Shown here one piece after another: positions 32,219 through 35,352 of a DNA stretch of 40,090 nt; position 1 is the stretch's first letter; each line of letters starts with the position of its first letter. The position numbers and the translations under genes were made by a program. Source of the DNA: Verrucomicrobiota bacterium (GTDB lineage Bacteria; Bacteroidota; Bacteroidia; Chitinophagales; UBA8649); NCBI GenBank assembly GCA_017853115.1, contig JAFMKE010000004.1, positions 1 to 40,090 on the forward strand, in the 5' to 3' direction. The notes under the pieces are model-generated. The model saw only the letters and a program-made list of their open reading frames with translations. It was not told the origin of the DNA and did no database searches.

Positions 32219-33385
32219 ATGACTTTTGATGCATCTGCTGTCGATCTATCCATTCTTTCAGCTCGAGCCTATAATTTACGTTGGGCTGAGTTGCCGAAAG
32301 GAGTTATCCCGCTAACTGCGGCTGATCCTGATTTTCCTATCGCCCCAGCGGTTAAACATGCTCTTCAATCATACATTGACGGCGGATATTTGAGTTATGG
32401 TCCTGCTGGTGGATTTAAAGAATTTAAAGAGGCGGTTGCGAATAACTATCAGCTGAAAAACCAGGTTTCTTATTCGCCGGAAAATATTCTGCCAGTAGAT
32501 AGTGCAGCTTTTGGTATTTATTTAATTTGTCAGGCATTACTTCAGCCGGGCGATGAGGTTATCGTTTTTAATCCTGTCGATTTTCTTTTTAAATACGCTG
32601 TTGAACAAGTGGGTGGAGTGGCTATTCCCTTTGATACGCCACAGTCGGAGGCGAGAATGGATTTCTCTGGTTTATCTTCCTTAATTACCCCAAAGACGAA
32701 AATGATTTGCTTGTGTAATCCATTGAATCCTACGGGAAAGGTTTTTACCCAAGAGGAATTAGAAGATTTATCAAAAATTGCAGCAGAGCATGATTTGTAT
32801 GTTATGTCGGATGAGATATGGAGTGATATTGTTTTTGCTCCCCATCGATTTTGCGCTTTTTCTTCGATAGAACGGACCTATGCGAAAACGATTACGGTAA
32901 CAGGGTATAGTAAGTCTTACGGACTTGCTGGATTGCGAATTGGTAGTGTTTTATGTCCTGATGAAACCATTTATCAGAAGATATTTTTAAAATCATTGCA
33001 TCAATCTACGGTACATGGTGTAAATGTTTTGGGGCAGGTAGCTGCTACTGCCGCGCTCAATGATGCCCAGGTATGGCTGGATGGTTTTTTACAACATCTG
33101 CACAAAATGCGCGACCTGGCAGTCCAGGAGCTTAATGGAATGCCAGGCGTAACTTGTTCTTCGCCACAGGGCTGTTATCTGGTTTTTCCTAATATTGAAA
33201 ATACGCCTTATACAGCTGAAGAACTTCACCATGTTCTATTGCAAGAAGCTAAGGTTGCAGTTGTTCCTGGGATGCCGAAGTGGTTTGGCGCAGGAGCCCA
33301 AGGACATATACGTCTAAGTTTTGCTACTTCAGAGGAGATATTATTGGAGGGTTTAAGTAGAATAAAAAGGTTTTTAACGAAATGA
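32219..33385 (+). CDS. PLP-dependent class I/II aminotransferase (or MalY/PatB-like C-S lyase)
   Basis: Fold-type I PLP enzyme of 388 residues. The cofactor lysine is K232 in TGYSKSYGLAGLRIG. The cofactor-binding N167-P-L-N-P-T-G173 loop and D198 in MSDEIWSDIVF are present, and a carboxylate-binding arginine lies in GHIRLSFA near the end. Overall it reads as an aspartate-type aminotransferase. The N-terminal LTAADPDFPIAPAV and the SDEIWSDIVF segment also recall MalY/PatB cystathionine beta-lyases, so a C-S lyase is a real alternative. The substrate is unknown. Its stop overlaps the next ATG (ATGA), coupling it to the flavoprotein fusion; a shared pathway is the natural inference. Confidence 0.88.
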   Translation: MTFDASAVDLSILSARAYNLRWAELPKGVIPLTAADPDFPIAPAVKHALQSYIDGGYLSYGPAGGFKEFKEAVANNYQLKNQVSYSPENILPVDSAAFGIYLICQALLQPGDEVIVFNPVDFLFKYAVEQVGGVAIPFDTPQSEARMDFSGLSSLITPKTKMICLCNPLNPTGKVFTQEELEDLSKIAAEHDLYVMSDEIWSDIVFAPHRFCAFSSIERTYAKTITVTGYSKSYGLAGLRIGSVLCPDETIYQKIFLKSLHQSTVHGVNVLGQVAATAALNDAQVWLDGFLQHLHKMRDLAVQELNGMPGVTCSSPQGCYLVFPNIENTPYTAEELHHVLLQEAKVAVVPGMPKWFGAGAQGHIRLSFATSEEILLEGLSRIKRFLTK

Positions 33386-35352
33386 GAATCGTAATATTCG
33401 GAGCAGGTATAGCCGGTTTGGCTGCGGGTATTAGGCTTAAGCGCTTAGGCCATTCGGTGCACGTTTATGAACAAGCACCCCAGATGAATGATCAAGGGAA
33501 TGCCTTTTTGATGCATGATGATGGCCTAGATATTTTACGTGATTTAGGTGATGAAGAGAGGTTTGACCAAATGGGTGAAAATATTACGCACTTCAAGCTG
33601 AATGCGCATGAGGGTGAAGAAGTTAAGTCAATACGTTTAAGACCTTGGCGATGTTTTAAACGAAATCAAGTTATTCGTTATTTGTATGATGCTTTTGGTG
33701 AAGATCATATTACCCACAATGCATCATTTGAAAAGTTTGAATGGAAAGATGGTTTAGCTAAAACTGCTTTTCTTTCCAATGGTCAAAAGATTGAAGCGGA
33801 TTTTTTTATCGGCGCGGATGGAATTCACTCGAAGGTTCGAGAAGATGCCGTTTTTCAAGTCGAGTTCTCACCGGTGTTTACGTACGAACTTCTCGGATTT
33901 ATACAAAACCCAGAGTTGTACCAAGAACTTAAGACGAAATTTGTGAAGTATCAACATCGCACCAAGAGTATCGCCTGTGGCGTGTTGCCTGCTGCTAAAA
34001 ATGAACTTATCATGGTATTGCAGTTCGATCCAGCATTGATTAGGCAGGCCAATATTGATGATGCTGACCATGCAAGGATTTCTTCCTTTCTATTACAAGA
34101 TTTTCCGAAGGAATTGCAAGATCTTATGTCTCATCAGACATTTGATCAAACCTATATATGGAAGACCCGAGATTTCGATTTAATCCCACGTTTTCACAAT
34201 AAAAATGTGGTTGTGATTGGCGATGCAGCGCATGTAGCTCTTCCATTTTCAAGTTCTGGCACAACCAATGCCTTACTGGATGCAGAGAGTTTAGCTCATT
34301 TGGTTTTTAGTAATGAGAAAGTTGCATCCACTCCGGCTAAAATGGATAGGGCGTTAAAAGAATTTTATCGGAAGCGATCGAAAGAAGTTGGCCATCAAAT
34401 TCAGTTTGGTCGGGAGTTAAAAGACAAATTCTTAATGCCAAGTAAGCATCCCTTAGAGAATCAGCGTGTCCCTTTGGTTTTCAGACAACCGGAGAAAGAA
34501 GTGCGTCCACCAAAACACAGATATTTGCGTGTATTGTATTTTACTGATCCTATCTGTTCGACATGTTGGGCTATTCAACCACAGTTGAGAAAACTAGAGT
34601 TGGAGTTTGGAAATCAAATTCAGATACAGCATCGTATGGGTGGACTTCTTCCCCACTGGAAAGGGTATAATCGCTTTGGGATAAGCCAGCCATTGGATGT
34701 AGCTGAACATTGGGATGAAGTCGAATCTTGGTCGGGTATGCCAATGAACGGTGACATTTGGCGACATAATCCTTTACCTTCCTCTTATCCACCTTCGATT
34801 GCGTTTAAAGCTGCCCAAATACAGAGCGCTAAAAAAGCAATTATCTTTCTGAGAAGGATTCGTGAAGTTTTGTTTGTTGGACAACAGAATATATTAAATA
34901 TCCGTGTCTTGTATGATTTAGCCCTACAATCAGGGCTAGATGCTGCACAATTTTTACGTGATCTACCTGATTTGGCCAGCGAACGATTTAATGATGACTT
35001 GGACTTAAAAGATTCTTACGAAGTGAAAATTCTTCCTACCATGATATTCGAGAATCACACCGGGGAAGTTAGAAGGATTGAAGGATATAGAGAATACGAT
35101 AAATATGTGCAAGTCATTCGCGAGCTAAACCCCAATCTAAAAGTCAACACCTATCCTACAAGTGGAAAAGAGTTGTTTGATCGCTTTCCAAGTATGAGTT
35201 TAAAAGAGTTTATGTACCTAAGTAATCAAACAGAGGAGGATGCACTGAATGAATTAAAGGAACTTCAACAACACGAGGCTATTGAGATTTGGGAAACACC
35301 AAGAATGAAGTTGTACCTCAGTACACTGAAACTTCAACAGGGATTTGTTTAG
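33382..35352 (+). CDS. FAD-dependent monooxygenase fused to a YjbH/FrnE-type DsbA-family domain
   Basis: A 656-residue two-part protein. Residues 1-365 form a PHBH-fold flavin monooxygenase: FAD-binding G7-A-G-I-A-G12, the GADGIHSKVRE motif at 144-154, and the IGDAAHVALPFSSSG motif at 279-293. A short proline- and lysine-rich linker (about 368-380) leads to a thioredoxin-fold domain, LRVLYFTDPICSTCWAIQPQ (382-401). Its CxxC pair is C392/C395, and RMGGLLPHWKG follows, as in YjbH/SpxH and FrnE-type DsbA proteins. The last 60 residues (SLKEFMYLSNQTEEDALNEL onwards) look like a small winged-helix tail. The frame is continuous through the linker, so no frameshift is needed to explain the fusion. 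There is no signal peptide, so it is cytoplasmic. The PLP enzyme gene overlaps its start. Reaction and substrate are unknown. Confidence 0.88.
   Translation: MRIVIFGAGIAGLAAGIRLKRLGHSVHVYEQAPQMNDQGNAFLMHDDGLDILRDLGDEERFDQMGENITHFKLNAHEGEEVKSIRLRPWRCFKRNQVIRYLYDAFGEDHITHNASFEKFEWKDGLAKTAFLSNGQKIEADFFIGADGIHSKVREDAVFQVEFSPVFTYELLGFIQNPELYQELKTKFVKYQHRTKSIACGVLPAAKNELIMVLQFDPALIRQANIDDADHARISSFLLQDFPKELQDLMSHQTFDQTYIWKTRDFDLIPRFHNKNVVVIGDAAHVALPFSSSGTTNALLDAESLAHLVFSNEKVASTPAKMDRALKEFYRKRSKEVGHQIQFGRELKDKFLMPSKHPLENQRVPLVFRQPEKEVRPPKHRYLRVLYFTDPICSTCWAIQPQLRKLELEFGNQIQIQHRMGGLLPHWKGYNRFGISQPLDVAEHWDEVESWSGMPMNGDIWRHNPLPSSYPPSIAFKAAQIQSAKKAIIFLRRIREVLFVGQQNILNIRVLYDLALQSGLDAAQFLRDLPDLASERFNDDLDLKDSYEVKILPTMIFENHTGEVRRIEGYREYDKYVQVIRELNPNLKVNTYPTSGKELFDRFPSMSLKEFMYLSNQTEEDALNELKELQQHEAIEIWETPRMKLYLSTLKLQQGFV

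Follow-up and report, generated by a model that had tools for sequence, protein, structure and literature searches.

A predicted flavin monooxygenase fused to a YjbH-type thioredoxin domain and encoded beside a PLP-dependent enzyme in Bacteroidota

Introduction

A single open reading frame in a 40,090-nucleotide stretch of contig JAFMKE010000004.1 (the window) raises the question of what a thioredoxin-fold domain of the YjbH type does on the same chain as a flavin monooxygenase. YjbH (SpxH) is a ClpXP adaptor of Bacillota. The original prediction, made from the window alone, saw one polypeptide of uncharacterised architecture and offered three roles for the cysteine pair of the C-terminal half: delivery of thiol electrons to the flavin, protection of a thiol substrate, or action as an adaptor. 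The domain structure, the distribution of the fusion and the neighboring genes narrow this choice.

Domain structure of the fused protein

The fused gene occupies positions 33382–35352 of the forward strand. It begins with an ATG at 33382, its stop codon ends at 35352, and it encodes 656 residues in one frame with no internal stop, in agreement with the predicted single chain across the junction. Residues 1–360 (33382–34461) make up the flavin monooxygenase (FMO) domain. The Pfam family FAD_binding_3 (PF01494) matches residues 3–306 with an E-value of 2.8e-25 and a score of 89.7 bits, compared with a gathering score of 22 bits. The three class A motifs lie at the predicted residues: the GxGxxG FAD motif (GAGIAG) at residues 7–12 (33400–33417), the DG motif (GADG) at residues 144–147 (33811–33822) and the GD motif (IGDAAH) at residues 279–284 (34216–34233). 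All three are nearly invariant across 69 aligned fused proteins, and G7, G9, G12, G144, D146, G147, G280, D281, A283 and H284 are identical in every row of the alignment. The Pfam match together with the motifs places this half among the class A flavin monooxygenases of PHBH fold. Its Foldseek neighbors include HpxO (TM-score on the target 0.82), Tet(51) and 2,6-dihydroxypyridine hydroxylase, and are mostly aromatic or heteroaromatic hydroxylases. HpxO, 2,6-dihydroxypyridine hydroxylase and the tetracycline destructases are the nearest sequence or structural relatives, with about 20% identity in the structure matches. Identity as an HpxO urate hydroxylase (NF033623, 123.7 bits for a cut-off of 500) or as a tetracycline destructase (NF033476, 48.4 bits for a cut-off of 550) was rejected.

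Residues 361–381 (34462–34524) form a linker that is predicted to be flexible and is poorly conserved. Its pLDDT blocks in the AlphaFold2 model are 60 and 51, and its mean majority-residue frequency is 0.39, compared with 0.62 and 0.68 in the flanking domains. The model, based on 69 aligned homologues, contains two confident domains with a mean pLDDT of 89 and a pTM of 0.84; values below 50 are confined to residues 368–374 and the last residues.

The thioredoxin-fold domain of YjbH/SpxH type spans residues 382–578 (34525–35115). Thioredoxin_5 (PF13743) matches residues 386–577 with an E-value of 1.4e-43, above its curated cut-off, as PF01494 is in the other half. In a phmmer search of PDB sequences, residues 380–635 match Geobacillus YjbH (6ghb) with an E-value of 4e-41, and the Foldseek match to the same structure has a TM-score on the target of 0.90–0.92 over about 270 columns. 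The alignment extends past the thioredoxin fold and covers, through residue 635, most of the YjbH-specific C-terminal region (residues 579–656, which together with the stop codon occupy 35116–35352). This region has a mean majority-residue frequency of 0.50, compared with 0.68 in the thioredoxin part. The CxxC motif, C392-S-T-C395 (34555–34566), is found where it was predicted, and P552 (35035–35037) takes the cis-Pro position of the thioredoxin fold. The C-terminal half is thus best described as a full-length YjbH/SpxH with the CSTC motif and cis-Pro intact. Of the YjbH/FrnE-type domain originally proposed, the YjbH part is borne out by PF13743 and 6ghb, but the FrnE part is not, as the FrnE/DSBA family (PF01323, COG2761) scores 18.1 bits, below its cut-off of 25.6 bits. 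The likeness to 6ghb, which covers the fold, the CxxC motif and the C-terminal extension, is one of sequence and fold. Unlike YjbH/SpxH of Bacillota, the window domain is fused to a monooxygenase, occurs in Bacteroidota and belongs to an operon with a PLP enzyme gene.

The thiol site is strongly conserved. C392, W396 and the P552-T553 pair are invariant in the 69 fused proteins and C395 is present in 67, compared with a mean column identity of 55%. The conservation of C392, C395 and the cis-Pro indicates that the catalytic features of the thioredoxin fold are under selection. Two complete fused homologues (L155:1432-3360 and L157:1568-3493) have CSTS in place of CxxC. A further cysteine, C91 (33652–33654), belongs to the FMO half, where it precedes the invariant R94 by three residues, and is itself invariant in the 69 rows. 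A relay between C91 and the CxxC motif was considered and set aside, since C91 is also retained in forms without the YjbH half.

Distribution of the fusion

A GTDB-wide scan of 84,980 species genomes with a profile of the FMO half found 135 loci with relatives, of which the best 80 were retained. The scan gave no match with the single window protein as the query; an alignment-based query was needed. All of these best 80 loci are Bacteroidota by title or taxonomy, among them members of Chitinophagaceae, Saprospiraceae, Pedobacter, Flavobacterium, Flectobacillus and Arcicella. They comprise 68 complete fusions in the same order, one fusion in which the contig breaks off with most of the YjbH half present, nine loci without the YjbH half and two that end at a contig edge. 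The complete fusions are 36–43% identical to the window protein over the full length. Because the same fusion recurs in 69 of the best 80 FMO homologues, an in-frame assembly error at the junction is excluded. An even draw of 399 genomes from the window's order contains fused open frames in 11.

The PLP partner gene

Immediately upstream of the fused gene, positions 32219–33385 of the forward strand encode a PLP-dependent enzyme with the aminotransferase class I/II fold, similar to GntC, PatB and aromatic aminotransferases (PF00155, E-value 1.6e-57). The start of the fused gene overlaps the stop of the PLP gene in an ATGA (33382–33385), and translational coupling of the two is probable. This neighborhood is nearly constant: the PLP gene adjoins the FMO gene upstream on the same strand in 77 of the best 80 of the 135 loci, with the identical 4-bp overlap in 49 of the 77. 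The exceptions are L108, L110 and L114; one of them begins at the edge of its contig. Across six loci arranged as in the window, the PLP enzyme is 55–58% identical whereas the fused protein is 36–43% identical.

The PLP enzyme is placed between PatB-type C-S lyases, GntC and aromatic aminotransferases, and none of the listed NCBIfam families matches it above its cut-off. Its best matches there are GntC (NF041364, 242.1 bits for a cut-off of 415) and the C-S lyase PatB (TIGR04350, 229.5 bits for a cut-off of 340), and neither identity was accepted. The PatB/MalY C-S lyases, GntC and the archaeal aromatic aminotransferase 1dju belong to the same superfamily. In contrast to PatB and GntC, the partner enzyme forms a subfamily of its own, linked to this FMO.

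In some loci, a GAF/PAS histidine kinase and a single-domain response regulator are encoded directly upstream of the PLP gene, for example at L103:2400-4774. The pair is also seen in L096, L100, L102, L105, L113, L115, L117–L119, L121, L128, L135, L139, L142, L145, L151, L161 and L168, mostly on the same strand and separated by less than about 100 bp. In 23 of the 80 loci, but not in the window, a kinase gene stands at this place. Through the kinase, a signal may control the PLP-FMO-YjbH module, or the product of the module may be sensed. In two genomes of one genus (L191:6237-12786 and L192:6478-13008), an unfused FMO-PLP pair lies between tryptophanase and TonB receptor genes. The upstream tryptophanase gene, not seen elsewhere, may point to aromatic amino acids. 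The TonB receptor at L191 had suggested a link to transport or to a metallophore, an idea that was dropped, as the neighbors of other unfused pairs (MutS, M16 peptidase and glutamine synthetase) are unrelated.

Gene arrangements and loss of the YjbH half

Three arrangements are observed. In the first, as in the window, the PLP gene is followed by the FMO-YjbH fusion. In the second the domain order is reversed, and a YjbH-FMO fusion is followed by a downstream PLP gene (L060, L062 and L251); both Pfam domains are confirmed in this order for L062 and L251, and for L060 the order comes from BLAST. All three reversed fusions retain CSTC and PT. The third is an unfused FMO gene followed by the PLP gene (L252–L255, L266, L173, L174 and L268); L266 is from the same family as the window's genome, and L268 is an annotated Persicobacter plasmid, with a PLP enzyme that shares 41% identity with that of the window. 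The three arrangements are one gene set. The PLP gene and the reversed fusion, both absent from the original prediction, argue most strongly for a joint action of the parts.

In the FMO tree, the unfused L252 and L254 group with the window-type clade (support 98), apart from the reversed fusions. This placement and the opposite domain order favor two separate fusions of the same partners. In the YjbH tree, the window-type domains form one deep clade (support 100/98) and the branches are long. A single clade holding every fused YjbH domain survives an AU test (p 0.176), so the case for two origins is carried by the FMO tree and the opposite order. At L256:5978-10201 and L257:5561-9724, a standalone YjbH gene is convergent with the FMO-YjbH fusion gene and directly adjoins it.

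The nine unfused members with the PLP gene upstream are interspersed with fused members of the FMO tree, several of them at well-supported positions, and the YjbH half was therefore lost several times. No YjbH was found anywhere in those nine genomes at E ≤ 1e-8. One loss is seen in decay: in Flavobacterium urumqiense (L156:7131-7200) a stop codon ends the frame where the YjbH domain begins, and a decayed YjbH remnant with further stops follows. Since the YjbH half is lost repeatedly while the FMO-PLP pair stays, the PLP enzyme and the FMO are the core of the set and YjbH an accessory.

Standalone YjbH proteins

Standalone YjbH proteins of the window's order are about 34–48% identical, and no FMO or PLP genes of these families were found near them in that order. 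One Bacteroidota standalone homologue is named 'ClpXP adapter SpxH family protein' in PLSDB/RefSeq. A divergent HxlR regulator gene adjoins the standalone Bacteroidota gene in 12 of about 27 loci, and at L072 the gene stands in a row with RclC, 4,5-DOPA dioxygenase, DoxX and YceI genes. This setting suggests electrophile, reactive-chlorine or catechol stress. YjbH of Listeria requires its CxxC motif for function and binds many proteins, while in B. subtilis and S. aureus Spx is degraded even without the YjbH cysteines; thioredoxin activity of YjbH was undemonstrated as of the 2020 Listeria study (PMC7253607). The window's own genome encodes an ArsC/Spx-like protein with a CSTC motif (L199:1477-1854), a possible partner of YjbH if the domain acts as an adaptor.

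Relation to known hydroxylases

A thioredoxin-like fold at the C terminus is already known from class A hydroxylases, namely HbpA, PHHY, RdmE and RebC (PMC4515095, PMC3546652). They likewise consist of a PHBH-fold FAD monooxygenase, a linker and a thioredoxin-like fold, and the combination is not new at the fold level. Their third domain belongs to another family and has no assigned function in these enzymes; in HbpA, which resembles PHHY, RebC and RdmE, it makes oligomer contacts (PMC4515095). A three-domain protein of PHHY/HbpA type was rejected here, with no PF07976 match at E ≤ 1 and Thioredoxin_5 found instead. Unlike the HbpA group, the window protein carries an entire YjbH, including its CxxC, its cis-Pro and the C-terminal region typical of that family. 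The literature searched, largely papers available without subscription, yielded no description of a complete YjbH that keeps its active-site cysteines, of fusion in both domain orders or of a constant PLP partner; within the same literature, the view that the architecture is uncharacterised holds.

Proposed function

Our preferred reading, which we hold tentatively, is that the PLP enzyme and an NAD(P)H-dependent monooxygenase catalyze consecutive steps on an amino-acid-derived metabolite, with the tethered YjbH half handling thiol or electrophile chemistry. The PLP enzyme, of the aminotransferase/C-S-lyase superfamily, and the FAD-dependent monooxygenase, whose flavin would most likely be reduced by NAD(P)H, would act successively on one metabolite, which the fold neighbors suggest to be aromatic or heteroaromatic. 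The YjbH half would be an accessory thiol-disulfide module rather than the principal source of the flavin's electrons. Its CxxC motif could reduce or trap a reactive product (a quinone, a disulfide or a sulfenyl species), or alternatively could keep a thiol substrate or enzyme cysteines reduced. The adjacent PLP gene, the three arrangements, the conserved FMO motifs, CxxC and cis-Pro, the stress setting of standalone YjbH and the need of Listeria YjbH for its CxxC motif all support this reading. Several findings weigh against it. The chemistry can run without YjbH, since the half is lost in lineages that have no other YjbH in the genome; two homologues have CSTS; and the HxlR and RclC neighbors belong to standalone YjbH rather than to the fused gene.

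The PLP-FMO-YjbH set points to an unassigned two-step pathway that is testable in culturable members of Flavobacterium, Pedobacter or Flectobacillus. The joining of YjbH to a single enzyme family in both orders, next to the same PLP enzyme, hints from comparative genomics that the YjbH family has a catalytic or protective task. It is doubtful, though conceivable, that the set makes up a previously undescribed two-protein pathway of Bacteroidota, for a natural product or for detoxification, in which the FMO channels a reactive quinone- or sulfur-type product to the tethered thiol domain; such channeling would be the first direct enzymatic role of the YjbH family in small-molecule metabolism.

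Alternative explanations

The main alternative, on the unlikely side in our judgment, is that the YjbH half is a protein-protein module (an SpxH-like adaptor, a dimerization domain or a regulatory domain, comparable to the thioredoxin-like third domain of HbpA) that governs how stable the FMO or the PLP enzyme is or how it assembles, with cysteines that serve at most as a redox sensor. The cysteine-independent Spx degradation in B. subtilis and S. aureus, which also counts against our preferred reading, and the many binding partners in Listeria (PMC7253607) agree with such a module, and the C-terminal thioredoxin-like domain of HbpA contacts the neighboring monomer (PMC4515095). Retention of the YjbH-specific C-terminal region, the repeated loss of the YjbH half, as expected of an accessory, and the ArsC/Spx-like CSTC protein of the window's genome are consistent with it as well. 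However, a purely structural role accounts neither for the near-invariant CxxC and cis-Pro nor for the attachment of YjbH to the front of the FMO in some proteins and to its end in others. The known third-domain family (PF07976) is not matched, and conservation drops from the thioredoxin part to the C-terminal region.

That operon rearrangement produced the fusion incidentally, by joining neighboring genes to little functional effect, is improbable. Operon neighbors fuse easily, and the losses in several lineages, with the decayed remnant in Flavobacterium urumqiense, would suit a dispensable attachment, but chance joining accounts poorly for opposite-order fusions of the same FMO family beside the same PLP partner, or for a forward fusion that forms one deep YjbH clade and keeps its catalytic motifs at high divergence.

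Least likely of the three roles first proposed, and very improbable, is transfer of thiol electrons from the CxxC motif to the flavin in place of NAD(P)H or as a supplement to it: a complete CxxC thioredoxin fold does lie on the same chain and the invariant C91 could act as a relay, but the FMO keeps its class A motifs, including an intact DG motif, and persists beside the PLP gene after repeated loss of YjbH, CSTS variants exist, and C91 is kept where YjbH is lost and is replaced by Ser in the fused L054 and L056, which have an intact CxxC.
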